Source: Nonomuraea angiospora
Lineage (GTDB): Bacteria > Actinomycetota > Actinomycetes > Streptosporangiales > Streptosporangiaceae
Length of the DNA stretch: 64,000 nt
Assembly (NCBI RefSeq): GCF_014873145.1
Contig: NZ_JADBEK010000001.1
Location: forward strand, 7,502,001-7,566,000
Direction of reading: 5' to 3'
Shown here: piece after piece, positions 6,059 to 30,182 of the stretch
Position numbering within the stretch: position 1 is the stretch's first letter
Layout: every line of letters begins with the position of its first letter
Translations under genes and position numbers: made by a program
Notes under the pieces: model-generated
What the model saw: the letters and a program-made list of their open reading frames with translations, nothing else
The model's database searches: none
Told to the model about the DNA's origin: nothing

Positions 6059-7135
6059 TCAGGCTGGGAGGGCTGGGGTGCCGATGACGCGGCTGATCCA
6101 GGCGTCCGGGTCGGAGATCTCCGGCGTCGTCGGAAGCGTCTCGGGAGAGGTCCAGATCTTGTTGAAGCCATCCATCCCCACCCGGTCCACCACCTTCCGC
6201 ACGAACGCCGACCCCTCCGCGTACTGCTTCATCTTGAGGTCGATCCCCAGCAGCCGCCGCACCGTACGGTCGAGGCGGGAGCCGCCCTCCCGGCGCTGGG
6301 CGAACTTGGCGCGGATATCGCCCACCGAGGGCACCACGGACGGGCCCACCGCGTCCATGACGTAGTCGCCGTGCCCCTCCACCAGGGTCATCACGGCCGT
6401 CAGGCGGTCGAGGATCTCCTTCTGGCCCGGCGACTGGATGGCGTCGATGAGGTTGCCCTCCCCGCCGCGCACCACGTCGGCCACCGTGTCGGCGGCGTTG
6501 CGGAGGCGTTCGAGCAGCGTGGGCAGGTCGAGGTCGGAGGCGAGCAGGAACTCGGTCATCTGCGACCGGACGTATTCGCGCAGCCACGGCACCCCCGTGA
6601 ACTGCACCCGGTGCGTCTCCTCGTGCAGGCACACCCACAGGCGGAAGTCGTGCGGGTCGACGCCCATCTCGCGCTCGGCGTGGACGATGTTGGGGGCGAC
6701 GAGCGTCAGCCGGCCCGTGGGCTCCTGGCCCGTGGGGTCCGGCGGGAGGAACAGCTCGTACTGCCCGAGGACCCGCGAGGCGAGGAAGGCCAGGACGGCC
6801 CCGACCTCGACGCCCGTGATGCGGGAGCCCACGGCGGTGACGATGGCGGGCGGCTGGTTGTCGGCGCTGCCCATGCGCTCCGTCAACGGCTCGAGCACCA
6901 CACGGAAGCCCTCGACGTTCGCCTTGATCCAGCCGGGCCGGTCGACGATGGTCGCGGCCTGCGGCGCGGCCTCCGCGTGGATCTTGGTGAACTCGCGTAC
7001 GTGGCCCTCGGCCTCACGCGACAGGGTACGGAGCTCGGCGACGGCCTGCCTGGCCTCCTCCCGGCTCACTTGAGGACCGGGGCGCACCAGGCGCGTGCCG
7101 GTCGTGACGGCCAGATCCCAGTCGATCACCTGCAT
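6059..7135 (-). CDS. Zinc-dependent metalloprotease of the DUF2342 / F420-associated family
   Basis: About 358 residues starting MQVIDWDLAVTTG, the usual opening of this actinobacterial family (often labelled coenzyme F420 biosynthesis-associated or zinc-dependent metalloprotease). The zinc site is HEETH, within LWVCLHEETHRVQF near residue 200. No signal peptide is seen, so it is probably cytosolic. The physiological substrate is unknown. ATG at 7135 is preceded by ggtgga; a GTG three codons upstream is also possible. It sits between dacB and tilS, a conserved neighbourhood in actinomycetes. Confidence 0.88.
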   Translation of the reverse strand: MQVIDWDLAVTTGTRLVRPGPQVSREEARQAVAELRTLSREAEGHVREFTKIHAEAAPQAATIVDRPGWIKANVEGFRVVLEPLTERMGSADNQPPAIVTAVGSRITGVEVGAVLAFLASRVLGQYELFLPPDPTGQEPTGRLTLVAPNIVHAEREMGVDPHDFRLWVCLHEETHRVQFTGVPWLREYVRSQMTEFLLASDLDLPTLLERLRNAADTVADVVRGGEGNLIDAIQSPGQKEILDRLTAVMTLVEGHGDYVMDAVGPSVVPSVGDIRAKFAQRREGGSRLDRTVRRLLGIDLKMKQYAEGSAFVRKVVDRVGMDGFNKIWTSPETLPTTPEISDPDAWISRVIGTPALPA

Positions 7136-7400: not shown

Positions 7401-8822
7401 TCAAGAGCGGGCCACGGTGGCGGCGAGGCGGTCGAGTACGGGTTCGGCCGTGGCCGGGACGCGGTCCGCCATGAACGCGAAGGTCACCAGCCGCCCGTCC
7501 TTCGTGGTCGCCATGCCCGCCAGCGTGTTGACGTTGTTCAGCGTGCCGGTCTTGGCGCGTACGAGCCCGACCTGCCCCCTGCTGTCACTCCCCGTGAACC
7601 GCCGCCCGTTCCCCAGCGTGCCGGAGAAGCCCGCGATCGGCATGCCGGAGGCGACGGCGTGCAGGTTGGGCTGGCTCGTGGAGCCGGCCATGGCGATCAG
7701 CTTGGCCAGGGCGCTCGGGCTGATGCGGTTGCGGATGGACAGGCCGCTGCCGTCGGAGAGCGAGATCCCCGACGCGGCCCCGAGCCGCTGGAGCACCGCC
7801 ACCACCGCCTTGGTGCCCCCTTCGAACGACGCCTCCTGGCCTTCCTTGATGGCCACGTGCCTGGCCAGGGCCTCGGCCATGTCGTTGTCACTTCGGGTGA
7901 GCGTGTGCTCGACGAGGGAGTAGAGCGGGGCGGAGTCCACCCGGCCCAGCTCGGGGGCGCCCTCCGGGGCCTTGTCGGGCTTCACGGACCTGGAGACCGT
8001 GATCCCCTGCTTGGCCAGCAACTTGGCGAACGCCGCGGCGGCGTACTGGGGCGGGTTGGAGACCCGGGGCCGGTGGAAACGGGGATTCTGGCGGCCTTCG
8101 TCGATGGTCAAGGCGTAGACGGGCGCGACCTCGCCGTCCGGGACGTAGTTCGGCTTCCAGCCGGGCGCGATCGGCGAACCGACGAACAACGAGGTGTCGT
8201 ACGAAAGGGTGATTTTTCGAAGGTTTTGCGACTTGAGGGTGGCGGCCGTGCGGGCCGCCAGGGTGGCGAGGGACGCCTGCTTCGGGTACGTCGGTTTGGC
8301 CGACGGGCCGGCCAGCATCGGGTCGCCGCCCCCGACCAGGATCGCCGTGCCCGGCTTCGCGCCCTGGACGACCCTGGTGGACAGCCGCGTGTCCGGGCCG
8401 AGGGAGGCGAGGGCCGCGGAGCACGTGACGATCTTCGTGGTCGAGGCCGGGACGATGGGGGTGTCGGCGTTGGCGGCGAAGATCCGCTCGCCGGTGGCCG
8501 CGTCGAGCACCACGGCGCCCACGTGGGAGCCGAGCGCTTCGTCACCCAGGGCACTGGTGAGCTGGCGCGTCAAAGTACCCTTAGTCGGGAGAGGTCCGCC
8601 CCCTGACTTCACCGAAAGCTGGGCCAGCACAGGCCCTGAGGTGACCACGGGGACGGAGGGAGACCCTTCCGGCGGGGACGCCGTCGGCTTGGTCGGTGGA
8701 GACTGCCTCGTCAACGCGCCCAGGCTGAAGTCGGTGGTCATCGCGTAAACGCCGATGACGATCGTCAGGGCCTGCAGCACGGCGAGAGTGGTCAACATCA
8801 CCCACCGGTCGTGCCGCGCCAC
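7401..8822 (-). CDS. dacB: D-alanyl-D-alanine carboxypeptidase/endopeptidase (PBP4 type, S13)
   Basis: Trims or cleaves peptidoglycan stem peptides outside the membrane. In 473 residues there is an N-terminal membrane or signal segment (about 8-27), a Pro/Ser-rich linker, then the penicillin-binding triad: SxxK as S127-TT-K130, SxN in TRSDNDMAEALARH, and KTG in RAKTGTLNNVNTLAG. Length matches actinobacterial PBP4. It is divergent from ppa with a 137-base shared upstream region. The end of the gene abuts the 109-bp tandem repeat, which would be in its 3' untranslated region. Confidence 0.95.
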   Translation of the reverse strand: MARHDRWVMLTTLAVLQALTIVIGVYAMTTDFSLGALTRQSPPTKPTASPPEGSPSVPVVTSGPVLAQLSVKSGGGPLPTKGTLTRQLTSALGDEALGSHVGAVVLDAATGERIFAANADTPIVPASTTKIVTCSAALASLGPDTRLSTRVVQGAKPGTAILVGGGDPMLAGPSAKPTYPKQASLATLAARTAATLKSQNLRKITLSYDTSLFVGSPIAPGWKPNYVPDGEVAPVYALTIDEGRQNPRFHRPRVSNPPQYAAAAFAKLLAKQGITVSRSVKPDKAPEGAPELGRVDSAPLYSLVEHTLTRSDNDMAEALARHVAIKEGQEASFEGGTKAVVAVLQRLGAASGISLSDGSGLSIRNRISPSALAKLIAMAGSTSQPNLHAVASGMPIAGFSGTLGNGRRFTGSDSRGQVGLVRAKTGTLNNVNTLAGMATTKDGRLVTFAFMADRVPATAEPVLDRLAATVARS

Positions 8823-15134: not shown

Positions 15135-16094
15135 TCAGATGAGGGCGGACTTGTAGAAGATGCTGGCCTTGCGGGCGCCCGCGGTGCCGGAGGCGAGGCC
15201 GAGGCACAGCCGGGGCCGTCCCGAGACGATCTGGATGGCCATGCCCTCCGGCTCGCGGTAGTCCAGGGACTTGCCCGCCTGGCTGAGCGAGCGCTGGACC
15301 TTGGCGCCCGTGCGCAGGTCGACGCAGGTGATGTAGGTGTTGCCCGGCGGGGGGTTGGCGGTGCCGTACGCCGTGCCGTCGAGCAGGTAGAGGTAGTCGC
15401 CGTAAGCCGTGTACCCCTGGAAGACGCCCAGGCCGGACGGCTGCGCGACGTCGTACAGCTTCGTGGCCGTGCCCGCCTTGACCGCCGCCAGCGAGTACGC
15501 CACGAACCGCGCCTGGCCGTCGACCCGGCAGCGCATGATCAGCCGGTTGGTGGACGGGTCGATGGCGCACGTGGTGCTGGTCGCGCCCGAGATCAAGGTG
15601 TACTTGGTGAGCGCCGAGGACGACGTCGTGAGCGTCTGGCCGTTGACGAACTTGAACCTCGCCAGCCGCCGCCCCCACGCGTTCCCCGAGCCGTCGGCGA
15701 CCGCGTCGGTCTCCGTCCACAGGTAGGCGGAGCCGCCCGACGGCTCCACGCCGATCTGCACGCCGTGGCCGAAGCCCTTGAGGTACATGTGGCCGAGCAC
15801 CGATCCGGACAGGCTCAGCTTGGTCACGCAGAGATCTCCGGCCGCCGCCGAGCCCGAGCCGTTCTTCAGCTGGGCCAGGTAGATGTGCCCGTTGGTGTTG
15901 TCGAAGGCGAACGACTGCAGCACGGTCTCGTCGTACAGCGCCTTCTTCCAGATCAGCTGGGTGGCGGGCGCCGCCAGGTCGAACCGGCCCGCTGCGGAGG
16001 CGGAGGCGGCCGCCGCCGCCGTCTCCGTGCCCGCCAGGGCCGCCGCCGCGGCTCCGGCGCCGACCTTAAGCAGTTCTCGGCGAGTGACCGGCAT
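15135..16094 (-). CDS. Tat-exported beta-propeller protein, P68 RBP/TagC-like
   Basis: 319 residues beginning MPVTRRELLKVGAGAAAAAL, a twin-arginine signal with Ala-rich hydrophobic core. The rest is beta-rich with repeated Asp/Thr turns (AFDNTNGHIYLAQ, YGDYLYLLDGTAYG, PEGMAIQ), like proteins labelled teichoic acid biosynthesis protein C or phage P68 receptor-binding propellers. Enzymatic activity is not established for such proteins. Strong ribosome site ggagg before ATG at 16094. Divergent from the sugar operon at 16270. Confidence 0.75.
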   Translation of the reverse strand: MPVTRRELLKVGAGAAAAALAGTETAAAAASASAAGRFDLAAPATQLIWKKALYDETVLQSFAFDNTNGHIYLAQLKNGSGSAAAGDLCVTKLSLSGSVLGHMYLKGFGHGVQIGVEPSGGSAYLWTETDAVADGSGNAWGRRLARFKFVNGQTLTTSSSALTKYTLISGATSTTCAIDPSTNRLIMRCRVDGQARFVAYSLAAVKAGTATKLYDVAQPSGLGVFQGYTAYGDYLYLLDGTAYGTANPPPGNTYITCVDLRTGAKVQRSLSQAGKSLDYREPEGMAIQIVSGRPRLCLGLASGTAGARKASIFYKSALI

Positions 16095-16217
16095 ATGACC
16101 TCCATAACGGATATATACGGATATTTCAGGAAGCCATCACCCTAGTGCAGCCCGCTGGAGATCACCTCCGAACTCCAACGGTCCAATTCGGCCGAGTGTG
16201 AGAGGGCCCTAGACAGT

Positions 16218-16234
16218 AAGTGATCTAATGACTA
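16218..16234 (+). promoter_or_regulatory. Candidate GntR operator, second copy
   Basis: AAGTGAT-CTA-ATGACTA matches 15 of 17 bases of the perfect palindrome AAGTGAT-CTA-ATCACTT in front of the GntR gene at 30108. It lies 36 bases before the ATG of the DUF5005 gene, where a repressor would overlap the promoter. I infer that the same regulator controls both operons. Confidence 0.7.
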
Positions 16235-16269
16235 GAACTGTAGGGAACTTCCCTCCCCAAGGACGAGTG

Positions 16270-17439
16270 ATGACGCGATTCCGCTCCGCCTTAGCACCCC
16301 TCGCCATCGCGTTGGCCGGCCTGACGGCCGTACCGCAGCAAGCCTGGGCCGCCCCGGCCAAACCCGTTCCCTCGGTGGCCCAGCAACAGCAGTCACCGGC
16401 CGCCCAGAAGGCCGCGTGTGGCCCGACCGTCAAGGCAACCACCACCGACGCCCGCCTGACCAGCCTTTTCACCAACTACGGCAACGACAACAGCCGCTTG
16501 GACGACTGGACGGGCGCCGACGGCACCTACTCGGTCAAGCTGCCGAACGGCAAGGAGCTGTGGATCTTCTCCGACACGTTCCTCGGCCGGGTCAACGCCG
16601 ACGGCTCGCGCCCGCCCGTGGTCGGGGAGGGCGGGGACACGGTCTTCCTGAACAACTCCTTCGCCGTCGAGCGCAACGGCAGGCTGTCCACGATCCACGA
16701 CGGCACCGCCGCCGCGCCGACCGCCGTCATGCCTCCGCGCGACCAGAACCACTGGTACTGGGCCGGCGACGCGACGGTGGCCGGCGGGCTCGTGGAGGTC
16801 ACCTACCAGGAGTACGAGCGGTACGGCACCGGCGCGTGGGACTGGCGCTGGCACCGGAACGTGGTGGCCAGGTTCGCCCCGGGCCGGCTGAACGAGCCCG
16901 TCAGCGTCACCGACCTGCCGTCCGGGCACGGCGTGTCCTGGGCCTCGGCGATCCTCAAGGACGGCGGATACACCTACGTGTACGGCGTCGAGGACCTCGG
17001 CTCGCCCAAGTACATGCACGTCGCCAGGGTCAGCGGGCAGAGCCTGCTGGGCACGTGGGAGTTCCTGAAGGCGGACGGCACCTGGTCCCCGGACGAGGCC
17101 GACTCGGCGCGGATCATGAGCGGCATCGCGAACGAGTACAGCGTCACCAAGGTCGGATCCGGATATGTCCTGATCACGCATGACACGACGGAGGTGCTGA
17201 GCCCCAACATCGTGGCCTACACCTCGTGCTCCCCGTTCGGCCCGTTCACCGGCAAGCAGCACGTCTACACGACCCCCGAGACCAAGGGGAACATCTTCAC
17301 CTACAACGCCCACGCGCACCCCGACGTCGCGGGCAACGGTCTAGTGGTCTCCTACAACGTCAACAGCTTCGTGAACACCGACCACTACCGCGACGTGACC
17401 ATCTACCGGCCGAGATTCCTGGATGTGACCTTCCAGTGA
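16270..17439 (+). CDS. Secreted DUF5005-type propeller protein, probable glycan-active
   Basis: About 389 residues with a Sec signal peptide ([18 protein letters not shown], cut after AWA). The body has features of the DUF5005 family: [34 protein letters not shown], and [21 protein letters not shown]. Such five-bladed folds resemble glycoside hydrolase families 43/117/130, but no activity can be assigned. ATG at 16270 is preceded by AAGGAC. First gene of a three-gene operon; its stop overlaps the next start (GTGA). The context of an epimerase, an SDR and a nearby GH38 suggests a role in carbohydrate capture. Confidence 0.78.
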
Positions 17440-18446
17440 GGCGCAACTGGGCGGCCCGCCTGCGGCCCGTCGTGATCGACGGGCTGCGGGCGGTCGTGCT
17501 GGAGAACGAGCGGCTGCGCGTGACCGTCGTGCCGGACAAGGGCGGCGACGTAGTGGAGTTCCTGCACAAGCCCACCGACACGGACTTCGTCTGGCTCTCC
17601 CCGCAGGGCCTGCGCAACCCGCACGACCACCTCCAGGGCGCGGCCGACGACGTCGCCCAGTTCATCGACCACTACGAGGGCGGCTGGCAGGAGGTCTTCC
17701 CGAACGGCGGCGCGCCCAGCGAGTACCGGGGCGCGCGGCTGGCGCAGCACGGGGAGGTCTCCGGGCTGCCCTGGCACTGCGAGGTCGTGGCCGACTCCGA
17801 GGAGGAGGTCGCGGTACGGCTCAGCGTGCGGACGCGGCGGCTGCCGTACCGGATGGAGAAGGTCTTCAGGCTCAGGTCGGGCACGGCGGCGCTGGAGATC
17901 GAGGGCCGGGCCACCAACGAGGCCGGCCTCCCGCTGCACGCCATGTGGGGGCAGCACATCGTGTACGGCCTGCCGTTCCTGCGTCCCGGCGCCCGAATCA
18001 GGCTGCCGGAAGGCGTCAAGGTGATCCCCCACCAAAGCGCGATAAATCCGGCGGGCCGGCGGGTCCAGGCGGGCGGCCCGTGGGAGTGGCCCGTCGTCCC
18101 GGCCGACGGCGGCGGCGAGACCGACCTGAGCGTGGTGCAGGAGCCCGGGTCGCCGAGCGACATCGTCTACCTGACGGGCTTCGACGAGGGTTGGTACGAA
18201 ATTTCAGGGGATATCGGTATGCGGGTGGAGTGGGATGCGACGCTCCTGCCGTACCTGTGGATGTGGCAGGAGTTCGGCGCGTCCACCGGTTATCCCTGGT
18301 GGGGACGGGCGTACACGCTGGGGCTCGAGCCGTTCTCCAGCATGCCGACCGACGGCCTGGCCGCCGCCGTGGACAACGGCACGGCCCTCGTCCTGGGCCC
18401 GCACGAGACGAAGGTGTTGAGGTTGCGCGCGGAGGTTCTGGCATGA
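17436..18446 (+). CDS. Aldose-epimerase-like protein (DUF4432 type)
   Basis: 336 residues from a GTG start overlapping the previous stop. The beta-rich fold of galactose mutarotase-like proteins is suggested by [20 protein letters not shown], the [14 protein letters not shown] loop, [12 protein letters not shown] with candidate catalytic His, and a C-terminal [11 protein letters not shown] segment with the acid residue expected late in the chain. Likely interconverts sugar anomers or processes a related sugar in the cytosol. The stop overlaps the SDR start (ATGA), so the three genes are tightly coupled. Confidence 0.8.
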
Positions 18447-19213
18447 GCGAGTTCAGCGGGAAAGTGGCGCTGGTCACGGGCGGTTCGATGGGCATCGGGC
18501 GGGCCGTGGTGGACCGGCTGGCCGACGGCGGGGCGTCCGTGGTGTTCTGCGGCGTCGACAAGGACGCGGCGCTCGACGCCAAGAGCGTCACCGGTGTGGT
18601 CGCCGACGTGCGGCGGGCCGACGAGATGCGCGACCTGGTGGACCTGGCCGTGACCAGGTACGGCGGGCTCGACATCGTCGTCACCTGCGCGGGCGTGCAG
18701 CGCTACGGCACGGTCGAGGACACCCCGGAGGAGGTCTGGGACGAGGTGCTCGACATCAACCTCAAGGGCGTCTACCTCACCTGCAAGGCGGCCGTCCCCG
18801 AGCTGAGGGCCCGCGGCGGCGGCTCGATCGTGATCATGTCGTCGGTGCAGGCGTTCTCCTCGCAAGCGCAGGTGGCCGCCTACACCGCGAGCAAGGCGGC
18901 GCTCAACGGCCTGACCAGGGCGATGGCGCTCGACCACGCCGCCGACGGCATCAGGGTGAACGTGGTCTGCCCGGGCTCGGTGGACACCCCGATGCTGCGC
19001 TGGGCGGCCGACCTGTGGCGGGGCGACCTGTCGCAGGAGGAACAGGTCGCGCAGTGGGGCCGCTCCCACCCGCTGGGCCGCGTGGGCCGGCCCGAGGAGG
19101 TGGCCGAGTTGGTGGCGTTCCTGGCGGGGCCGCGCTCGTCGTTCATCACCGGGGCCGAGCACCGGGTGGACGGCGGCCTGCTGGCGCAGAATCCGGCCGC
19201 CCTTCCCGAATAG
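18443..19213 (+). CDS. Short-chain dehydrogenase/reductase, sugar- or sugar-acid-type
   Basis: 256 residues with the classical SDR motifs: TGGSMGIGR near the N-terminus for NAD(P), CAGVQ, catalytic Ser in [13 protein letters not shown] (Tyr-x-x-x-Lys), and PGSVDTPM. An acidic residue is absent at the usual NAD position in VVFCGVDKD except the following Asp, so cofactor preference is uncertain. Closest in style to gluconate 5-dehydrogenase or 3-ketoacyl-reductase-like SDRs; operon context favours a sugar substrate. Last gene of the operon. Confidence 0.88.
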
Positions 19214-19283
19214 CCCACAGGTTCCCCTGGAGGCGCACCAAAGCTGGCAAGTGTTGCGTCAACGCGACGAACTTGCAGGTCGT

Positions 19284-19301
19284 ACCACTGATAGCAGTGG
19301 T
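19284..19301 (+). terminator. Hairpin after the sugar operon
   Basis: Perfect 7-bp inverted repeat ACCACTG-ATAG-CAGTGGT, 70 bases after the SDR stop and 130 bases before the next gene. No U-tract follows, so it may be a weak terminator, a 3'-end stabiliser, or an operator for the I36 gene. Confidence 0.4.
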
Positions 19302-19432
19302 CCTCGGCGTGCCGGGCACGCGACCCGATCCGGGCGCGCAGCCCTTGATCGTGCGGCGGGTCGTAGCGACTCGTGTTCGATCATGCACGTTAGGTTACGA
19401 GGTCGAAACGACTCACGATCGAGGAGAGACCT

Positions 19433-19852
19433 GTGAGGCTATCGAGAAAGGCCGCCGGCATCGCCGCCGCGGTCGCGCTGTTCACCGCGGTCGTGCCCGC
19501 CACCGCAGCGGTGGCCAGCCCCCGCTCGACCTGCTACGGCGGTCGTGTCTGCCTGTACGCCGACTTCGACTACAACCGCGGTCAGGCCGACCACTGGCGC
19601 GACTTCATGCAGGACGACTCGGACTTCTCCGACAACAACTGGCTGAACTGGGACTTCAGCAACTCCTGGGAGACCATGGACAACGACACCAGCTCCATCA
19701 GGAACCGCATCGGTTGCAGCGCCACGCTCTGGCAGCACCCGGGCTACACGGGAGCCCACAGCACGTTCACGAACAACTCGAACGACGGCTTCCTGGCGAA
19801 CAACGCCATCGACGACGACCGCGCCAGCGCGCTCGACATCTGGTGCCGCTGA
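19433..19852 (+). CDS. Secreted I36-family peptidase-inhibitor-like protein
   Basis: 139 residues. A signal peptide (MRLSRKAAGIAAAVALFTAV, cut near AVAS) is followed by a compact Cys-containing domain: STCYGGRVCLYADFDYNRG and SIRNRIGCSATLWQHPGY. This matches the beta/gamma-crystallin-like I36 inhibitor family common in streptomycetes, which includes the metalloproteinase inhibitor SMPI. GTG start with a gaggaga ribosome site. The following lipoprotein begins inside its last codons. Target protease unknown. Confidence 0.85.
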   Translation: MRLSRKAAGIAAAVALFTAVVPATAAVASPRSTCYGGRVCLYADFDYNRGQADHWRDFMQDDSDFSDNNWLNWDFSNSWETMDNDTSSIRNRIGCSATLWQHPGYTGAHSTFTNNSNDGFLANNAIDDDRASALDIWCR

Positions 19853-20760
19853 GCAATAACGGGAGTGCCGGTTTCCGGGCTTGGCCGCCGGAAACCGGCT
19901 GCCGCGGACTCCTCGCGGGCGCACTGCTGCTGACCTCGGTCACGGCCTGCGCCGCCGACGAGCCCGCGCCGCGAGCGCCGGTGCAAGGCGTCTCCTCGGT
20001 GTCGGAGCTGGTGCTGCCGTTCGACGCCTACAAGACCACTCCCGAGCAGCGGGCCGTCCTGGGCAACGCCCACAACCAACTCGTCGTGCAGTGCATGCGC
20101 AAGCAGGGCATCACGATCGACCCACCCGCGGAGGACGCCGCCGCCATCGCCGCGGTGGACCCCGGCAACTCCCGCCGTTACGGCGTCGCCGACATCGAGG
20201 CGGCCAAGATCTACGGCTACCACCTCGCCCGGCCGCCCTCGCCCGACACCACGGGCGCCTGGGCCGGCAAGCTCCCTAAACCCGCCCGGCACCGCCTGTA
20301 CGGCACCGCCGCCGACCGTGGCTGCCTGGATCGGGCCACGCTCACCCTGGACAAGGGCTCGGCGAAGGCCGACTGGCCGTGGCTGTCCCTGCAGGACTCG
20401 CTCACGCTGGAGCAGGCCGCCAAGGATCCGTCCGTGACGGCGGCCGCCAAGCGCTGGGAGACGTGCATGGGCCAGGCGGGCCACTCCTATCCGGCTCCCG
20501 AGGCCGCCATCGCCGACGGCCGCTGGGACCTGGACAAGCCGACCGTCACCGAGGAAGAGAAGCAGACCGCGACCGCCGACACGATGTGCAAGTGGTCGTC
20601 GGGCCTGGTGGTTGCCTGGTTCTCGGCCGACGCGGAGCTCCAGCGGGCGGTCGTCCGGGACAACGCCGACCGCTTCGCCGCGCTCCGCGACAACCTCAAA
20701 CAGCGCGTCGCCCGCGCCTCAGCCCTGCTGGCCGAGCACGAAGGCGGCCAGGTCCGCTGA
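19843..20760 (+). CDS. Predicted lipoprotein of unknown function
   Basis: The frame has no ATG near its start. GTG at 19843, overlapping the I36 stop, gives a short N-region, a hydrophobic stretch GLLAGALLLTSVTAC with a lipobox Cys, then AADEPAPRAP. The 305-residue product has paired cysteines (VVQCMRKQGI, WETCMGQ, DTMCKW) and helical charged segments typical of uncharacterised actinobacterial lipoproteins. Translation is probably coupled to the inhibitor gene. It converges on the S10 peptidase gene and overlaps its 3' end by 42 bases. Confidence 0.65.
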   Translation: MPLSNNGSAGFRAWPPETGCRGLLAGALLLTSVTACAADEPAPRAPVQGVSSVSELVLPFDAYKTTPEQRAVLGNAHNQLVVQCMRKQGITIDPPAEDAAAIAAVDPGNSRRYGVADIEAAKIYGYHLARPPSPDTTGAWAGKLPKPARHRLYGTAADRGCLDRATLTLDKGSAKADWPWLSLQDSLTLEQAAKDPSVTAAAKRWETCMGQAGHSYPAPEAAIADGRWDLDKPTVTEEEKQTATADTMCKWSSGLVVAWFSADAELQRAVVRDNADRFAALRDNLKQRVARASALLAEHEGGQVR

Positions 20761-22155
20761 CTGCCGGAGCCTGCTCGGCTCGTGGACGTACATCATGTGG
20801 CCGGCCTCGTAGTACCTGAACTCGACGTTGGCGGCCAGCTCCGCGGGCACGGGCAGGTGCGCGAACGCGTGCTCGGCGGCGTAGTACGGCGTCGCGCCGT
20901 CGTGGTAGCCGCAGGCCACGTGTACGCGCAGGTGCGGGTTGGCCCGCATCGCGTCGGCCAGCTTGTCGACCACCGCGACGTGGGCGCCCTCGAACTCCTT
21001 GAACGACCACGGGTGCACCCGCGACGTGAGCACCTCGTACGGCAGGTCGTTGGCGTAGCCCAGCTCGGCGCGCAGGTAGTGGTTGAGCGCGGAGCTGTAG
21101 GGGCCCATGATCGCGTTCATGCTGGGGTCGGAGGAGAAGTGCTCGCGCCCCGAGTCGGGGTCCCAGCCGGTGAACCGGCCGTCGAGGCGGCCGACGATCC
21201 GGCGGCGCGAGCGCAGCACCTCGGTGAAGAACCTGATGTGCTCGATCCGCAGGTCCACGCGGTCGACGTAGTCCGCGCTCAGCCCGGTCAGCGCGGCGAC
21301 CCTGGAGACGGCGGCCGAGCGCTCCTCGCCGGTGAGGCGGTTGCCGCGGGCCAGCGCCCACGGGTAGTCGCGCTCGGCGTACGCCTCGGCCTCGCGCAGC
21401 ACGTCGGCCAGCGGCCGGTCGCCATGCAGCCCGTGATAGTGCGCAATAGCGGCATAAGTCGGCAAATAGAGGGCGTAGGACAGGTCGTTGCCCTGGTTGA
21501 AGTCCCCGGTGATGAAGTCGAGCACCGAGGAGATCAGCATCACGCCGTTGAGGTACATGCCGTACCGCGACTGCAGGTGGTCGGCCAGCGCGGCCGCCCT
21601 GACCGTCCCGTACGACTCCCCCGCCAGGAACTTCGGCGACATCCACCGCCCGTTCCTGGTGGTCCACAACCGGATGATCTCCCCGACGGACTCGATGTCG
21701 CCGGTGAAGCCGTGGTACGGCTCCGGCTTCTCGCCCTCGGCCGCCCGCGAGTAGCCCGTCGAGACCGGGTCGATGAAGACCAGGTCGCTCACGCTCAGCA
21801 GGCTCTCCTCGTTGTCGGCCAGCCCGTAAGGGGGAGGCAGGAGCGCGCCCGCGTCCCCCATCACCACCCGGCGCGGACCGAGCACGCCCAGGTGCAGCCA
21901 CACGCTCGACGACCCCGGGCCGCCGTTGAACGCGAACGTGACCGGCCTGCTCAGCGGCTCGGCCCCGTCGAGCGTGTACGAGGTGACGAACATCTCGGCC
22001 TTGGCCCGCAGGCCCCCGAACTTGCCGTCGTCGATCACCTCCTCGCGCAGCACCATGGTGCCGGTGGTGGCGGTGTACGCCTGCCCGGACGGCAGCGTGT
22101 GCGAGGTGGTGACGAGGTTGTCAGCCGGCGAGGCCGGCTGGGTTTCTTCCGACAT
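20719..22155 (-). CDS. Serine carboxypeptidase-like peptidase (S10)
   Basis: 478 residues from ATG at 22155. Family S10 marks: oxyanion-hole NGGPGSSSVW, nucleophile Ser in AGESYGTVRA, Asp in GYHDGATPYY and His in YEAGHMMYV, all in alpha/beta-hydrolase order. There is no signal peptide, so it appears cytosolic, unlike many S10 enzymes. It follows the GlucD-like gene by 10 bases and is probably the last gene of that operon, which is unusual company for a peptidase; a role as an acyl- or glycoconjugate hydrolase is possible. Confidence 0.87.
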   Translation of the reverse strand: MSEETQPASPADNLVTTSHTLPSGQAYTATTGTMVLREEVIDDGKFGGLRAKAEMFVTSYTLDGAEPLSRPVTFAFNGGPGSSSVWLHLGVLGPRRVVMGDAGALLPPPYGLADNEESLLSVSDLVFIDPVSTGYSRAAEGEKPEPYHGFTGDIESVGEIIRLWTTRNGRWMSPKFLAGESYGTVRAAALADHLQSRYGMYLNGVMLISSVLDFITGDFNQGNDLSYALYLPTYAAIAHYHGLHGDRPLADVLREAEAYAERDYPWALARGNRLTGEERSAAVSRVAALTGLSADYVDRVDLRIEHIRFFTEVLRSRRRIVGRLDGRFTGWDPDSGREHFSSDPSMNAIMGPYSSALNHYLRAELGYANDLPYEVLTSRVHPWSFKEFEGAHVAVVDKLADAMRANPHLRVHVACGYHDGATPYYAAEHAFAHLPVPAELAANVEFRYYEAGHMMYVHEPSRLRQSADLAAFVLGQQG

Positions 22156-22164
22156 ATCGCCCAA

Positions 22165-23397
22165 TTATGGAGCTATATCAAGGGACACGGCGGGGTCGGC
22201 GAACCGTTCGTTCGGCACAGTGGCGTACCAGCCGGGCCGCCCGGGGTCGCGGTCGTACGGATAGCCGCCCGTCTCCCGGTAGAACTCGGCGTAGCGGGCG
22301 ACCCGCTCGGGATCCAGCCGCACCCCCAGCCCGGGGCCGGACGGCACGGCGATGGCGCCCTCCGAGTACGCCAGCTTCCCGCCCTCGATCACGTCGTCCC
22401 TGAGCTGGTGGTAGTGCGCGTCGGCGGCGTAGGTGAGGTTCGGCAGCACGGCGCCGAGGTGCAGCATGGTCGCCAGCTGGATGCCCAGCTCGCCCGAGGA
22501 GTGCACGGCCACCCCGAGCTGGAACGTCTCGCACACCCCCGCCGCCTTCACGCACGGCCTGATGCCGCCCCAGAACGTCGTGTCCAGCAGCACCACGTCG
22601 GCGGCCCTGCGCATGACGTTGGAGGCGAGCTGCTCGAAGTTGACGACGACGGTGTTCGTCGCCAGCGGCACCCTGACCTGCTCGCGGATGGCCCTGAGCC
22701 CTTCGAGCCCCCAGACCGGGTCCTCCAGGTAGTCGTTGTTCAGCCCCTCGATGGCCCGGCCGAAGCGCAGCCCCTCGGCCACCGACAGCACGGCGTTCGG
22801 GTCGTACCTGAGCCGGTCGCCGGGGAACGCCTCGGCCAGCGCCCGGTAGCACTCCAGCTCGTGGTCCGGCGGGAACACGCCGCCCTTGAGCTTGTGCACG
22901 GTGAACCCGTGGTCGTCCTTGAGGTGCTTGGTGTGCTCGACGAGCTGGTCGGGCGTGCGGATCTCGCCGTAGCCCTCGGCCGCGTACCGGAAGAACAGGT
23001 ACGAGGCGAACGGCACGGCGTCGCGGATCCGCCCGCCGAGCAGGTCGTACGCGGGCACGCCCAGGTGCTGCCCGATGAGGTCGATACAGGCGAACTCGAT
23101 GGCCGCGAGCAGCTGCGTCCTGTTGTTGTAGAGCGAGGCCGTCGGGTTGGCGATCTTGAAGCGCAGCGCCTCCAGCTGGAAGGGGTCATGGTCCTTCAGG
23201 TACGGCATGAGCGCCCGGAACGCCGCTTCCGCGCTCTCGCCCCCGCCGCCCATCTCGCCCAGCCCGACCAGCCCGTTGTCGGCCTCGACCTCGACGATCG
23301 TGCGCACGAACCGGCCCCAGTGGGCGCCGTTGCTGTGCCGCAGCGGCGCCTCCAGCGGGACCGCGACCGTCGTGGCCCTGATGTCAACGATCTTCAC
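22165..23397 (-). CDS. Enolase-superfamily sugar-acid dehydratase, glucarate dehydratase-like
   Basis: 410 residues. The glucarate dehydratase subgroup pattern is visible: KxK in [10 protein letters not shown], metal ligands in RYDPNAVLS and [23 protein letters not shown], and a catalytic His in [12 protein letters not shown]. These enzymes abstract a proton alpha to a carboxylate and dehydrate acid sugars. GTG at 23397 overlaps the GH38 stop (GTGA), with ggggga seven bases upstream. Exact substrate (glucarate, idarate or another aldonate) cannot be told. Confidence 0.88.
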
Positions 23398-26369
23398 GAA
23401 CACGTCCCCCAAACAACGGCCACCCCGCAGGCGGGCAGCCGCACCTTGACCGTCTCGTCCACCACGTCCAGCCCGCGGGCCGAGCGCAGGCCCGGCAGGC
23501 CGACCGTCACCTCGACCGGCTCGGCGGCCAGCGACTGCAGCCGCACCACGCGCTCGTCGCCCGTCCTCCCGAGGGACGTGACGAGCACGTCGGGGTGGTC
23601 GACGGACACGTACGTCTCGGTGACGTCGGGGCTGTCGGTGACGAGCGCGCCCACGAACGGCTCGGTCAGCCCCGAGGCCGCCGCCGCGCCGAGCCGCCGC
23701 CCCTGGGCTCCGGCCTCAGAGGTCACGGCGTAGCGGAAGGTGGTCTCGCCCTGCTGCTGGGCCGGGAAGTTGGTGTCCCAGATGTTGTTGAGCGCCCACG
23801 AATAGACCGTGCCGTCCTCCTGGTCGAGGGTCGGCGGGAACGGCGCGTACGGCATGTGGATGGTGCCGAGCTGCACCAGCGGCGCCTCCAGCGTGGCCCA
23901 GGCGACGGTCAGCTCGGGGTCCTCGAACGCGATCCAGTGCCTGATCGGCAGCATGTACTCGGCCGAGCCGGGCACGCGCGGCACGCCGGGGCCGCCGACG
24001 CCGCCGGTCAGCTCCCAGGCGGTGGCCGGCCCGGTGGCGAACGGGAAGGCCAGGAAGACGGCCTCCTTGGCGGGGGTGCCCTGCTTGGCGAGCTGGTAGG
24101 TCAGGTCGACCCTGGGCACGCCGGCGTGCAGCTCGATCGTCGTGCGGATCCAGTCGACGCCCTTGCCGTGCAGCTCGACGACCAGCTTCTCGCCGACGGC
24201 CGTGCGCTGGACCTTGGTGATCGTGGCGCCCTTGCCGATGGCCCGGTCGCCGAGGAGCGTGCGGTCATGCGCTCCGACGTGTCCCGACAGATGGTTGAAA
24301 TGCGGGGCGGTGGCGTACTGGTCGTAGACGTACTGGCCGAAGCCGGCCGCCGCGTCGCCGTTGACCAGCTCGCGTCCTGCCCGCTTGTCGAAGATCGAGC
24401 CGATGTAGCCCTCGCGGACGTCGTAGGCCACCCGGTAGAACTCGTTCTCGATCACCCCGCTGAGGTCCAGATCGACCGGCTCGGGGGCCTGGTTCACGCC
24501 GGGCACGACGTCGAGGCGGGCGTAGCCGTAGCCGGGCACGCCGGGGACGACCGCGTGGACGTGCCGCCCGATGGGCCGGGTCGGCCAGTCGTCCGGGTGC
24601 ACCAGCTCCTCGTGGTGCGGGAGCGTCTCCCCGGTCCGCGAGTCCACCAGCGCGATCGGCACGTCCACGCCCACCACGTCCCTCGGCAGGAACGCGCGGA
24701 CCACGTCGGTCCGCGTCCACGTGCCGGGGTTGAAGACGGCGAACGAGGCCAGCGCGCCGCCCTCGGTGCCCGCCTCCGACAGCGCGGCGCCGAACCTGCG
24801 GACCGCGGCGTGCAGCAGGTCGGCCGCGTCGTCCTGGGCGTCGTAGGCGCCGGACGACTTGCGCGTCCACTGCAGGCCGCCCGAGTCGCCCGCCTCCTCG
24901 GCGTCCTCCCACGGGTTGGCCGCGCCCCAGGTGTGCTCGTTGAACAGGGCCACCTTGTCGTAGGCCGCGTCCACCTGCTCGGTCGCGTCCACCCCGGCCA
25001 GCGTGTGCAGCGTCTCGGCGACCCGCAGGGCCGACTGCGCCCGCCGCACGTAGCCGAGCGGGCGCGCGCCCGAGCCGAGCCCGTCGGCCCACCAGTCGGT
25101 CCAGTCGCCCTCGTGCACGGCCAGCCGGTCGTGGTAGCGCTCCTCGACGTGCTCGAAGAAGTCGCTGTTCACGGCCGAGCGCAGGCGCGGGTAGGCCCAC
25201 TGCTCGTTCCACCGGCGCGCGATCGACGCGGGCACGATCGACGGCCCCGCGTTGTCGGCGTGCGCGCCCTGCACCCGCAGGTGCAGCACGTCCAGCTCGT
25301 ACGGCTCCTTCGGCGCGTCCGGCCCCTGCCAGCCGAACGTCCCCGGCCCGTACGGATAGCCGCGCGTGGCCAGCGCCGACAGGTAACGCGGCAGCAGGTC
25401 GTCGGCCAGCTCGTAGGAGTCGGTCAGCCCGACCGTGTTGCCCTCCATGTACGCCATGCCGTGCGGCGTGTCCGTGAACCAGACGATGATCTCGTTGCCG
25501 CTCGGCGCCCGCCAGCGGAACGGCCTGGTCAGCTTGTCGCCGCCGTGCAGGTAGGGCACGGAGCGACCGGCCCAGTTGTGCGCCGCGGCCAGGTAGCGCA
25601 CCCCGTGCGAGTGCAGCGCGTCCACCAGGCCGACGACCGCGCCCGGCACGTCGGTGTGCATGGCGGACCTGGTGGCGAAGCCGTACTTCTGCTCCAACTG
25701 GGTGGTGAAACGGAGCTGGCGGTGCAGCTCCTCGGTCGAGCACGCCTCCGTGTGGAGCTGGAACGGCAGCGCGGTCACCTCGATCACGCCCTCGCGGGCC
25801 TTCTGCGCGAAGGACTCCACCATCTCGGCGGGCCGCGCGGCCAGCCACTTCAGCGCCGGCATCGACGACTCGACCGTCCACCGGAACTTCGCGTCGTCCG
25901 GCCAGGACGCGGTCTCCTCGGCCAGCCGCAGCGCCGCGTCCAGGTAGTCGAGGTGGTGGCGGAGCACGGTGCCCTGCGGGTCGGTGTAGCCGATGTCCAG
26001 GTGCGAGTGGTGGACGACGAACACGCTCCACTTGCGCTGCGGGGTCACCGTGACCTGCGCGGTGCCGACCACTCCCGCGTCGTCGCGGCACTCCAGCGTG
26101 AGCACGCGCGGCGCGTCCACCTCGGGCACCAGCAGCGTCACGTCGCTGCCCGACGCGCTGTCCACGCCCACCAGCACGTGCGTCAGCGGCTCGGTGCTCG
26201 ACACCCTGACCGCCTGCCGGCCGTCGTGGGTGAACAGAGGCAGCACCGCGACCCGAACCTCCAGCCCGCGCACGCTGATCACCGGTGTCGAGGTGTCGTC
26301 GCGCAGCGCCTGCCTGATCCCGTCATAGTCGGGACTGCCCAGGCTCCGCTGGAGCAACCGGCTCGTCAT
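23394..26369 (-). CDS. Glycoside hydrolase family 38 alpha-mannosidase-like
   Basis: 991 residues and no signal peptide, so it is intracellular. The GH38 metal site is in [11 protein letters not shown] (120-130, including H121, H123 and D125). The likely nucleophile Asp is in MHTDVPGAV near residue 230, and the third metal region in [13 protein letters not shown] beta-rich C-terminal part follows. Start ATG overlaps the permease stop by one base (TGATG). It probably releases mannose-type residues from imported oligosaccharides, but bacterial GH38 members vary in linkage. Largest gene of the transport operon. Confidence 0.88.
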
Positions 26370-27178
26370 CAAACACTCCCTAGAGACAGGCCCCTGGCGA
26401 AGAGGCGCTGGGTGGCGAGGAACAGCACGACGGTCGGCAGCGAGACCACGAGCCCCGCGGCCAGGCCGACGGGCACGGGCGTCCCGGCGTACACGTCGGT
26501 CATGAGGCCGGCGATGGCGGTCATCACCGGCCGCACGTCCTCGGTCTGGGTCAGGGTCAGACCGAAGATGAGGTCGTTCCAGACGAAGGTGAACTCCAGG
26601 ATGAACACCGCCGTCAGCGCGCTGAGCGAGATCGGCAGGTAGATGCCCCAGAAGATGCGCCAGGTGGAGGCGCCGTCCATCCTGGCCGCCTCGAAGATCG
26701 AGAACGCTACGCCAGTGTAGAAGTTGCGCAGCACGAAGGCGGCGAGCGGCACGCTGATCGCCGTGTAGATGAGGATCATGCCGAGGCGGCTGTCGTACAG
26801 GCCGGCGTCGCTGTAGCCGACGAACAGCGGCACGAGCAGCATCTGCGAGGGGAATACCGTGCCGCCGAAGATCAGAATGAACCAGAAGAACCCGTGCCGG
26901 AGCCGCAGCACCACGATCGTGTACCCGGCCAGCGCCCCGATGATCACTCCGAGCAGGGGCGAGACGACGGCGTAGAGGGCGGTGCTGGCCAGGCTCTGCG
27001 TGAGGTTGGCGCTGTCGAGCGCCCGCGCGAAGTTCTCGAACAGCGCGAAGTCGGACGAGGGCGCCCACGCCCGCCCCGGATCGTACGAGGCGGCCGGGCG
27101 CGCGGCGTTCACGAGCAGCAGGTACGTCGGCCCGAGCCAGACCAGCCCGAGCACCACCAGGACGGCACGCCGGATCAC
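26369..27178 (-). CDS. Carbohydrate ABC transporter permease (MalG-like)
   Basis: 269 residues, about six membrane helices, and the EAA loop EAARMDGASTWRIFWGIYLP that docks the ATPase. GTG start overlaps the stop of the other permease (GTGA). It pairs with the 27175-28023 gene to form the channel of a CUT1-type sugar importer. No ATPase is encoded nearby, so it presumably uses a shared MsiK-like ATPase elsewhere in the genome. Confidence 0.93.
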   Translation of the reverse strand: MIRRAVLVVLGLVWLGPTYLLLVNAARPAASYDPGRAWAPSSDFALFENFARALDSANLTQSLASTALYAVVSPLLGVIIGALAGYTIVVLRLRHGFFWFILIFGGTVFPSQMLLVPLFVGYSDAGLYDSRLGMILIYTAISVPLAAFVLRNFYTGVAFSIFEAARMDGASTWRIFWGIYLPISLSALTAVFILEFTFVWNDLIFGLTLTQTEDVRPVMTAIAGLMTDVYAGTPVPVGLAAGLVVSLPTVVLFLATQRLFARGLSLGSV

Positions 27179-28023
27179 TGGGCCACCTGCCTCTTGAGGT
27201 AGAGGTAGGACGCCAGCCCGGTGACGACGGTCAGCATCACCGCGACGGCCGAGCCGTAGCCGTAGTCGCTGGCCACGAACGTCTCCTTGTACATGGTCAC
27301 CGCCAGCGTCTCCGAGTTGCGCCCCGGACCGCCCTGCGTCAGCACCCACACGATGTCGAACGTCTTCAGGCCGGCCACCAGCGCGAGCCCGACCACGACC
27401 GCCGTCAGCGGCCTCATGAGCGGCCAGATGACATACCTGAACAGCCGCCACCCGCCGGCCCCGTCGAGCCGGGCGGCCTCGATCGGCTCCTTCGGGATCG
27501 ACTGCAGCCCCACCACGAACAGCAGCATGTTGACGCCGAGCTGCTGCCACGTCCAGACCAGCAGCATCGCCAGCGTGTTGACCGGCGCGTCCTGCAGAAA
27601 GGCGGTGTCCACGCCCAGCAGCTGGTTGGCGATGCCGTCGTGCGACAGGATCGGGCTCCACACCATGGCCAGGCCGGCGCCGCTCAGCGCGTACGGCAGC
27701 AGGAACGGCACCCGGAACCACACGCCGCCCTTGATGTCGTACGACAGCACCGCGACCAGCAGGCCGAGCCCGACGGGCAGCACCATGGTGCCGATGACCC
27801 AGAGCAGCGTGTTGCGGATCGAGGTGAGCAGGGCGGGGTCGTCGAGCAGCTTGCCGAAGTTGTGCACGCCGATCCACTGGGCCGGCTCCAGGCCGTCGTA
27901 GCGGGTGAAGCTGAGGTAGGCCGTCCACAGGAACGGCGCGTAGAGCAACCCCGCGACCAGCAGGACGGCGGGCGCCACGTACCCGAACCCGAACCGCCCA
28001 AGTATGGGAGCACGCGTGTTCAT
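27175..28023 (-). CDS. Carbohydrate ABC transporter permease (MalF-like)
   Basis: 282 residues with six predicted helices and an EAA loop EAARLDGAGGWRLFRYVIWP. It starts MNTRAPILGRFGFGYVAPAV. It lies 103 bases after the solute-binding protein gene, a gap containing a small hairpin around 28036-28058. Second channel subunit of the same CUT1 importer. Confidence 0.93.
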   Translation of the reverse strand: MNTRAPILGRFGFGYVAPAVLLVAGLLYAPFLWTAYLSFTRYDGLEPAQWIGVHNFGKLLDDPALLTSIRNTLLWVIGTMVLPVGLGLLVAVLSYDIKGGVWFRVPFLLPYALSGAGLAMVWSPILSHDGIANQLLGVDTAFLQDAPVNTLAMLLVWTWQQLGVNMLLFVVGLQSIPKEPIEAARLDGAGGWRLFRYVIWPLMRPLTAVVVGLALVAGLKTFDIVWVLTQGGPGRNSETLAVTMYKETFVASDYGYGSAVAVMLTVVTGLASYLYLKRQVAQ

Positions 28024-28126
28024 GGCCTCACTCCGTTCGGCGGGCTCGGTCGCCCGAATGCCGCCGCCTTCCCCCGCTCTGGTCGCTCCGCTCCCGCCGC
28101 TCCTCCAGGCGACGGCGCTCCCTCGC

Positions 28127-29374
28127 TCACTGATGCGTGCTCCAGTACTCGTCAGCCGCCTTCTGGATGGTGTCCAGGACCTCCTTGTAGCTGCCGGGCT
28201 CCGTCACGAACTTGCCGAACCCGTCCAGCGCGGCCGTCAGGACCGGCGGCGGCGTGGCCTCGAAGTACCGGTTGACCAGGCGGTACTGGCCGCTGCCCGC
28301 GTCCTTCGTGACGGTGCCGAGCGCCTTGTCCGAGATGGTCACCTTGGGGTTGGCGCTCACGTCTCCCCTGCTGGTCGCCCACTTCTCCTGCGCCTGCGGC
28401 GTGGTCCACCACTTGAGGTACTTCTGGTTGGCGGCGGGGTCGGCGCCCTTGGCCAGCGAGCAGAGCGGCCCGCTCTCGAAGATCATCGAGGTCTTCGGCA
28501 GCGAGGGGTTGACGTTGGGGATGACGAAGAAGTCGTAATCCTCGCCGGGCTTCATGTTGCGCTGGCTCATGCTGGTGTTGAACCAGGTGCCGAAGGAGAC
28601 CATCGCCGCCTTGCCGTTCTTCAGCACGTCACCCGGGTCCGTCTTGTCGCCAGGATTGATGAAATATCCGGCGTCAATGAGGGACTTCCACTTCTCCATC
28701 ACCTGGACCACGCCCGGGTCGGTGTACTTGGCCTTGCCGGTGGCCAGGCGGTCGTACAGGTCGGGGTCGGAGCCGGCCATGAGCTGCTCGAACCAGACGA
28801 AGGAGAACAGCACGCTGGTGTGGTAGAAGGCCTTGACGCCGTTCTTCTTCAGCGTGTCGGCCACCTTGACCAGGTCGTCCCACGTCTTCGGCGCGGTGAG
28901 GCCGTACTTGTCGAAGATCTTTTTGTTGTAGAACATGCCCCAGTACGCGACGTTCATCGGCACGCAGTACTGCTTGCCGTCGATCGTGTAGTACGGCGCG
29001 AGGTCCTTCGACAGGTCGCCGGCCTGGATCGCCTGCTGCCAGATGTCCGTGGTGTCGGCCACCTGCTTCTGCTTGACGATCTCCTCCAGCATCCCCCCGG
29101 TCTGCCAGGTGAACAGGTCAGGCTTGACGTTCGTGCGGAACGACGCCTTGATGAACGCCTGGTATTGGGCCGAGTCCGTGTATCCCGTCGGCTTCATGCC
29201 CAGGCCGATGCTCTGCTTGGACAGGGCGCCCATCTCGTCGAAGTACTTCGTCCAGGCGCCCTTGTCGTTGTACAGGGTCAGCTCGCTCTTCTTCTGCGTC
29301 TCGGCGCCGTTTCCGCCGCAGGCGGTCAGGACGAGCGCCGCCACGCCGAGCGTGACCACACGTGACCGGAACAT
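28127..29374 (-). CDS. Sugar ABC transporter solute-binding lipoprotein
   Basis: 415 residues with a lipoprotein signal ending VLTAC, followed by GGNGAETQKKS. Features of CUT1 binding proteins are present: VPMNVAYWGMFYNKKIFDKYG, a PKTWDDLVKVADTLK segment, and a Trp/Tyr-rich ligand cleft. It captures the oligosaccharide outside the membrane and delivers it to the two permeases. It lies 34 bases after the GntR gene, so the regulator heads the operon. Ligand unknown; the adjacent GH38 suggests a mannose-containing saccharide. Confidence 0.92.
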   Translation of the reverse strand: MFRSRVVTLGVAALVLTACGGNGAETQKKSELTLYNDKGAWTKYFDEMGALSKQSIGLGMKPTGYTDSAQYQAFIKASFRTNVKPDLFTWQTGGMLEEIVKQKQVADTTDIWQQAIQAGDLSKDLAPYYTIDGKQYCVPMNVAYWGMFYNKKIFDKYGLTAPKTWDDLVKVADTLKKNGVKAFYHTSVLFSFVWFEQLMAGSDPDLYDRLATGKAKYTDPGVVQVMEKWKSLIDAGYFINPGDKTDPGDVLKNGKAAMVSFGTWFNTSMSQRNMKPGEDYDFFVIPNVNPSLPKTSMIFESGPLCSLAKGADPAANQKYLKWWTTPQAQEKWATSRGDVSANPKVTISDKALGTVTKDAGSGQYRLVNRYFEATPPPVLTAALDGFGKFVTEPGSYKEVLDTIQKAADEYWSTHQ

Positions 29375-29408
29375 GGACCGGCCTCCTTGTTTCTTCGGGG
29401 GTCTTACA

Positions 29409-30104
29409 TCAGGGGGATTGCAGCCTGTGCTCTATGACCGTCTTGACGTCCACCAGGTGGGCCCGCATGCGCTCCTCGGCCTGCGCCGCGTCGCGTGCTT
29501 CGATGGCCTCCAGGATCGCCAGGTGCTCGTCGTAGTCGCGGCGCCGGTCGTCGAAGATCTGCAGGATCTCCCGCTGCTCGGGTCCGTGGACGGTGAGCAG
29601 CGAGTCGACGACCTCGTGCAGCACGCTGTTGCCGGCCAGCCGGGCCGTCGCCCGGTGGAAGGACATGTTCGCGTCGTGCAGGAGGGCGTCGTGGCCGTGC
29701 AGGTGCCTGCCCGCCTCTTCGAGCACCCGCTTGAGCGGCGCCAGTTCCTCGGGGTCCGCGTTGTGCGCGGCCATCGCGGCCAGCGGGGGCTCGATCACGA
29801 TCCGCGCGCCGAGCAGCTCCAGGAGCTGGGCGGCGTGCATCTCGCGCATGTTGGGGTTGGGCAGGACGACCCGCTCGATGTCGGTTCCGACGTAGATGCC
29901 GGAGCCGTGCCGCATCTCGATGGCCCCGGTGGCCTCGAGCCTGCGTAGCGCCTCGCGCAGCGTCGGGGTGGTGACGGCGAAACGCTGGGAGAGCTCCCTG
30001 GTCGAGGGCAGCCTGTCGCCGGGCCGGTGCCCTCCCGTACGGATGAGCTCCAGCATGCGCTCGGTCAGAGCGTCGGACAGCGTCGGCCGCGTTACCTCGG
30101 ACAT
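29409..30104 (-). CDS. GntR-family regulator, FadR/FCD type
   Basis: 231 residues: a winged helix-turn-helix (PGDRLPSTRELSQRFAVTTP, LREALRRLEATGAIEMRHGSG) followed by a helical FCD effector domain with metal-binding His and Asp (NMSFHRATARLAGN). The ATG at 30104 lies three bases from a perfect palindrome, with no ribosome site, so the transcript may be leaderless and autorepressed. Heads the ABC/GH38/dehydratase operon. The effector is probably an acid sugar, as usual for this subfamily. Confidence 0.92.
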   Translation of the reverse strand: MSEVTRPTLSDALTERMLELIRTGGHRPGDRLPSTRELSQRFAVTTPTLREALRRLEATGAIEMRHGSGIYVGTDIERVVLPNPNMREMHAAQLLELLGARIVIEPPLAAMAAHNADPEELAPLKRVLEEAGRHLHGHDALLHDANMSFHRATARLAGNSVLHEVVDSLLTVHGPEQREILQIFDDRRRDYDEHLAILEAIEARDAAQAEERMRAHLVDVKTVIEHRLQSP

Positions 30105-30107
30105 ATC

Positions 30108-30124
30108 AAGTGATCTAATCACTT
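30108..30124 (-). promoter_or_regulatory. GntR operator, perfect palindrome
   Basis: AAGTGAT-CTA-ATCACTT: two 7-bp arms with a 3-base spacer, directly before the GntR start codon. On the gene's strand the spacer region reads TTAGAT, a plausible -10 box for a leaderless start. Its position implies autoregulation. A 15/17 match lies at 16218. Confidence 0.8.
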
Positions 30125-30182
30125 ATTCGTCTGGGCGTCTATGATTTCCTCATGAGACGTGGGCCGGCGCGGACCGCGGCGT

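Follow-up and report, generated by a model that had tools for sequence, protein, structure and literature searches.

Two sugar-related gene clusters in a 64,000-nucleotide stretch of the Nonomuraea angiospora genome (the window) are each preceded by a copy of a 7-3-7 palindrome. This palindrome (consensus approximately AAGTSATYTRATSACTW) is very probably the operator of the GntR regulator encoded beside one of the copies, which would repress both clusters as well as an unlinked gene for a second solute-binding protein (SBP) and be released by a sugar acid. Binding, repression, inducer and pathway order are inferred from sites, positions, conservation, co-occurrence and gene families. Operon A, of three genes on the plus strand, encodes a DUF5005/DUF4185 protein, a DUF4432 epimerase-like protein and a short-chain dehydrogenase (SDR). 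Operon B, of seven genes on the minus strand, encodes GntR, an SBP, two permeases, a distant relative of glycoside hydrolase family 38 (GH38), an MR_MLE protein and an S10-like hydrolase. The coordinates are given in Table 1.

The copy before gntR (AAGTGATCTAATCACTT) is a perfect palindrome, and AAGTGATCTAATGACTA, ahead of operon A, matches it at 15 of 17 positions. The first-pass annotation had reported both elements, and both were found in place; it had also called the operons divergent, which is ruled out by their strands, as A (+) and B (-) face each other and are convergent. In the shuffled window, 0.02 matches were expected at three or fewer mismatches, and none of 100 shuffles reached 3. 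In the whole genome, a single contig of 13.09 Mb, five places had three or fewer mismatches (seven rows, two places being counted once per strand); the backwards control gave none. Chance as the origin of the sites was ruled out by these two analyses. Two of the five places were those of the window, one, with a single mismatch, lay at 10.919 Mb ahead of the gene for the paralogous SBP, and the remaining two were weaker sites before genes assigned to the phospholipase A2 type, with L005 left out of the Pfam scan. A candidate regulon of about ten genes, as originally proposed, thus stands for the window but not overall, as at least one unlinked locus appears to belong to it too.

GntR was found in 48 of 54 Nonomuraea genomes, and in all 48 a site lies beside gntR; the window protein is 99–100% identical to the GntR of genome G010. 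A site also lies ahead of operon A in all 19 fetched clusters containing this operon. Across the 54 genomes, 114 places had two or fewer mismatches versus one for the reversed control. They belonged to gntR (48; 41 read as DNA, seven assigned by coordinates), operon A (37; ten read, namely the window, L077–L084 and L104, the others placed by how far they lie from the gntR site, with many of the same species read in a survey of 78 named loci), the second SBP (15, all read), RHS/phospholipase A2 genes (nine, all read; eight genes scanned by Pfam, L237 not), a DUF5005–fibronectin III–phospholipase A2 fusion (three; two scanned by Pfam, L100 not) and others (two). The regions of all 12 genomes that have gntR and no operon A site at two mismatches were fetched; 11 have a site in the same place at three to four mismatches, and in the twelfth, L071, no operon A was present in the fetched stretch. 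Among Nonomuraea loci with a DUF5005 gene, the site was found in 37 of 38, and the remaining one (L159) is of the same species as L072, where the site is present. Conserved sites in orthologous clusters, together with few and non-random genomic matches, support the earlier proposal that GntR would co-regulate both operons.

The site was also lost together with the regulator. All six Nonomuraea genomes without GntR lack the GH38 gene as well; five of them (99–100% complete) have no site, and a single one precedes the DUF5005 gene of the sixth (L104), which is 63% complete. Among the five, L125 retains SDR and DUF5005 genes, and no gntR, SBP, permease, GH38, MR_MLE or DUF4432 genes were seen there. 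Its operon A site has decayed to CGGTGATCTAATGGCCG, which fits a loss of selection after the loss of gntR. Elsewhere in the same family, 29 genomes that have the cluster were chosen and 28 of them contain a site, versus none of 14 without the cluster; the 29 were taken from the 32 genomes outside Nonomuraea in which GH38 matched, and the 14 were drawn from the listed genomes without a match, 245 further ones being unlisted. The three left out (G104, G156 and G332; 32–48% identity) showed no GntR in the respective regions (L122–L124), and no site there at up to four mismatches.

GntR matched in 65 of the 78 named loci that carry a GH38 relative. Upstream of gntR, at a distance of no more than 120 bp, a site with at most one departure from the consensus was present in 60 of these and one with two departures in two; this consensus was derived from the same data, the random-window count (19/3000) includes true sites, and the named loci overlap the 48 Nonomuraea genomes and the fetched clusters. 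In the remaining three (L188, L192 and L197), the site precedes the DUF5005 gene instead. The gntR-linked site is kept in Actinomadura and Micromonosporaceae, with GntR proteins that are 53–73% identical; in Micromonosporaceae (53–61%), it reads AAGAGATTAGATGACTT in L183 and L184 and is exact in L188. In L183, L184 and L187 (positions around 5100–6950), the operator lies between two divergent GntR paralogues. Neither GntR nor a site within three mismatches was found in six Streptomyces loci with GH38 relatives of 42–45% identity.

The palindrome is embedded in promoter-like sequence. TRGACR-N16-18-TTAGAT, with the palindrome over TTAGAT, was found in 38 of 39 gntR and in all 15 second-SBP promoters. 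TRGACA precedes the operon A site at the same distance in all 24 Nonomuraea rows with a located site, which include some species twice and do not include L072, whose site overlaps the aligned start, was misplaced in the alignment and was found by reading the fetched cluster. Among 39 distinct Nonomuraea gntR upstream sequences, the operator columns hold a mean of 1.95 bits per base versus 0.16 at -80 to -46; these sequences (45, of which 39 distinct) were picked for holding ATGTCCGAGGT, which makes columns 0 to +10 conserved by construction, but not the operator columns. Because in most Nonomuraea the operator occupies -20 to -4 before the gntR ATG and leaves no room for a ribosome-binding site, the gntR mRNA looks leaderless, with a predicted start codon and -10.

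A GntR dimer would thus cover the -10 of the apparently leaderless gntR promoter and, in operon A, sit between the -35 and -10; at either place it would block RNA polymerase, acting as an autorepressor. Glycan fragments would enter via the ABC transporter and be oxidised, and a sugar-acid intermediate would bind to the FCD domain and release the repressor, which would switch on transport, glycosidases and a route from aldose via aldonate to 2-keto-3-deoxy acid. The protein has the N-terminal GntR winged helix-turn-helix and the C-terminal FCD domain of the FadR/FCD subfamily, and Arg36 and three histidines (H150, H194 and H216) are the same in each of the 12 orthologues. Such histidines coordinate a metal in other FCD proteins. 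Regulators of the FadR subfamily respond to small molecules, carboxylic acids among them, as ligands (PMC4494728), and a sugar acid is likely the inducer of GntR.

It is unlikely that GntR binds the site chiefly as an activator of operon A or of the second SBP gene, as might be suggested by the operon A palindrome lying between -35 and -10 and not over -10; each of the three promoter types has the palindrome inside the stretch that RNA polymerase must occupy. A still smaller probability is assigned to a conserved promoter type in place of an operator, with selection keeping TRGACR-N17-TTAGAT. The block is nearly constant in the gntR and second-SBP promoters, but the palindrome arms extend beyond TTAGAT on both sides and are equally conserved, and the sites disappear together with the regulator gene. 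Moreover, 2 nt separate TRGACA from the palindrome in operon A, compared with about 11 in gntR-type promoters, and the -10 lies elsewhere; by this shift relative to the -35, a promoter-only reading was rejected. The least probable alternative is that the true binder is another regulator, be it the AraC-type protein whose gene immediately precedes that of the second SBP in the own genome or a GntR paralogue, as in the Micromonosporaceae loci with two of them around the site, for almost all clusters have the palindrome next to the gene for this GntR, including those in which no AraC gene was seen, and it is missing from five near-complete genomes without this GntR.

Several observations weigh against GntR as the repressor acting at this palindrome. 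The common consensus of FadR-subfamily operators is TKGT/ACMA with GT and AC 2–3 nt apart, with exceptions such as NanR and BioR (PMC4494728); the window operator deviates from it, with a TSAT-N3-ATSA box and a sole GT..AC pair 9 nt apart. In L125, the TRGACA/-35-like block is gone as well, and the whole promoter may be decaying. The reversed control of the same-family comparison gave four matches in 43 genomes, G278, with a broken-up GH38 cluster, has no site, and many Actinomadura DUF5005 paralogues (about 50% identity) have none within 400 bp. Nine of the 114 genus matches precede RHS/phospholipase A2 genes, which have no clear sugar role.

Table 1. Features of the proposed regulon and variant sites elsewhere in the genome (window positions; C1, own-genome coordinates)
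Feature	Position	Strand	Remarks
Operator O1, AAGTGAT-CTA-ATCACTT	30108..30124	.	0 mismatches; 3 bp before gntR ATG
Operator O2, AAGTGATCTAATGACTA	16218..16234	.	2 mismatches; 35 bp before DUF5005 gene
Candidate -10 of gntR, TTAGAT	30113..30118	-	inside O1; putative promoter role
Candidate -35 of gntR, TAGACG	30136..30141	-	conserved block -39..-32 before ATG; putative role
Candidate -35 of operon A, TAGACA	16210..16215	+	2 nt before O2; TRGACA conserved
Candidate -10 of operon A, TAGAAC	16233..16238	+	17 nt from -35; putative, read from sequence
gntR, GntR/FCD regulator, 231 aa	29409..30104	-	Pfam GntR 67.1, FCD 83.5 bits, both over cut-off
ABC sugar solute-binding protein	28127..29374	-	SBP_bac_8 114.2 bits
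ABC permease 1	27175..28023	-	BPD_transp_1 55.7 bits
ABC permease 2	26369..27178	-	BPD_transp_1 55.5 bits in longer ORF 26369–27928; start read from sequence
Distant GH38 (alpha-mannosidase family) relative, 991 aa	23394..26369	-	GH38N 48.9, GH38C 28.5 bits
MR_MLE (enolase superfamily) protein, probable acid-sugar dehydratase	22165..23412	-	MR_MLE_C 181.1 bits
S10-peptidase/hydrolase-like protein, last gene of operon B	20719..22164	-	Peptidase_S10 37.1 bits
DUF5005 protein related to GH183 endo-D-arabinanases	16270..17439	+	DUF5005 31.0 bits (cut-off 29.6); N-terminal signal-like stretch
DUF4432 protein, aldose-1-epimerase-like	17436..18446	+	DUF4432 83.9 bits
Short-chain dehydrogenase, probable aldose dehydrogenase	18443..19213	+	nearest PDB 3vtz, 2dtd
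Own-genome variant site (L003)	C1:907561-907577		
Own-genome variant site (L005)	C1:11124257-11124273		

The paralogous second SBP occurs in 15 of the 54 Nonomuraea genomes, including the own genome, and a site precedes all 15. In the own genome, the AraC-type gene lies before it and a gene for an AMP-binding enzyme after it, and neither operon B permease matched within the 15 kb fetched around it. In a few other species, just distant permease matches (23–31%) were found within 16 kb. For this reason, the second SBP may use the operon B permeases. A beta-propeller gene (15135–16094, minus strand) is divergent from operon A, starts about 124 bp from O2 and is present in few relatives; it could share this operator.

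The enzymes of the two operons fit glycan uptake followed by an oxidative route to 2-keto-3-deoxy acids, with the sugar a candidate only. Oxidative (Entner-Doudoroff-like) aldose pathways comprise an aldose dehydrogenase, an acid-sugar dehydratase, a 2-keto-3-deoxygluconate (KDG) kinase and a 2-keto-3-deoxy-6-phosphogluconate (KDPG) aldolase. The SDR and the MR_MLE protein would correspond to the first two: the SDR scored 251.7 bits with the NCBIfam aldose dehydrogenase model (under its cut-off of 341), and the MR_MLE protein is closest to PDB entries of putative glucarate dehydratases and stays under every NCBIfam cut-off. In the window genome, neither a kinase nor an aldolase gene was observed next to the operator, whereas KDG-kinase-like and KDPG-aldolase-like genes lie between two sites in L121, a Streptosporangiaceae metagenome-assembled genome, and a KDG-kinase-like gene lies beside a site in L243 (Actinomadura), all of these calls being over Pfam and under NCBIfam cut-offs; no lactonase was identified. 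Because of the likenesses of SDR and MR_MLE protein and these neighbouring genes, the route from aldose via aldonate to 2-keto-3-deoxy acid is likely.

Both GH38 domains of the GH38 relative exceed their cut-offs (25 and 25 bits); its activity is putative, no PDB sequence matched at 0.01, and it would point to mannosides. A hexose substrate is somewhat more likely than a pentose. The PDB entries nearest to the SDR are Thermoplasma aldose dehydrogenases. In the Thermoplasma acidophilum enzyme, a glutamate separates mannose from glucose (PMC3891874); the Thermoplasma AGIE motif, which may be the place of this glutamate, corresponds to AGVQ in the window SDR. The S10-like gene lies beside the cluster in seven of 20 fetched Nonomuraea clusters, and many relatives lack it there.

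The DUF5005 protein stays under the DUF4185 (GH183) cut-off (32.8 versus 39.5 bits), and its profile matches were 4hbs (1e-28) and 8hhv (5e-8). D84 and D102, 18 residues apart in a stretch not aligned to EndoMA1 itself, are invariant in 19 of 19 sequences; the GH183 catalytic aspartates have the same spacing in EndoMA1 (Asp33/Asp51) and in DgGH4185b (PMC10509167). With the D-arabinan locus of Microbacterium arabinogalactanolyticum described in the same paper, the window shares a GH183-type enzyme, with an aspartate pair at this spacing, and an SBP_bac_8 ABC transporter. The window enzyme, however, is of the DUF5005 type, a GH38 relative and oxidative enzymes are found instead, and neither GH172 nor GH116 was present among the scanned window proteins.

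Small catabolic regulons under a GntR protein that also controls its own gene are a well-known arrangement. DgoR, ExuR, LldR and PdhR, examples of FadR-subfamily regulators acting on sugar-acid metabolism (PMC4494728), have the GntR helix-turn-helix and FCD domains, the 7-3-7 palindrome, a local catabolic regulon and the autoregulatory position in common with the window regulator, but their box is TKGT-N3-ACMA, compared with TSAT-N3-ATSA here. As far as literature searches show, the regulator, the operator lacking the TKGT/ACMA box and the unlinked member are new: the open-licence literature yielded nothing on a Nonomuraea GntR operator, the exact 17-mer or an Actinomadura GntR glycoside hydrolase regulon, and one metagenome paper on DUF5005. 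The palindrome thereby becomes a testable regulon, with regulator, operator and promoter matched across several actinobacterial families, and provides a first regulatory context for DUF5005 proteins, DUF4432 proteins and the distant GH38 group. An FCD regulator conserved together with a nonstandard operator would also be useful for models of protein-DNA recognition.

A close variant of the site, AGGTGATCAAATCACTT, precedes genes with a phospholipase A2 domain at their end, several also having an RHS repeat, in L234–L241 and the own genome; the phospholipase A2 match was obtained for eight of eight Pfam-scanned RHS/phospholipase A2 genes. These sites may be a further branch of the regulon or belong to another regulator. 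In three species (L098–L100, positions around 7955–8035), AAGTCATCTAATGACTT precedes the large DUF5005–fibronectin III–phospholipase A2 fusion gene. One GntR might run a scattered scavenging of the envelope glycolipids of other actinobacteria, the substrate being a lipoglycan that combines arabinan, mannan and acyl moieties. A single operator would then unite secreted GH183-like enzymes, the GH38 relative, the orphan second SBP and, in some species, the phospholipase A2 fusions and RHS/phospholipase A2 proteins, but this idea is regarded as doubtful. In L085, L094, L101, L121, L188 and L243, a gene for a PhyH-type dioxygenase adjoins the operator or an AraC gene close to it.

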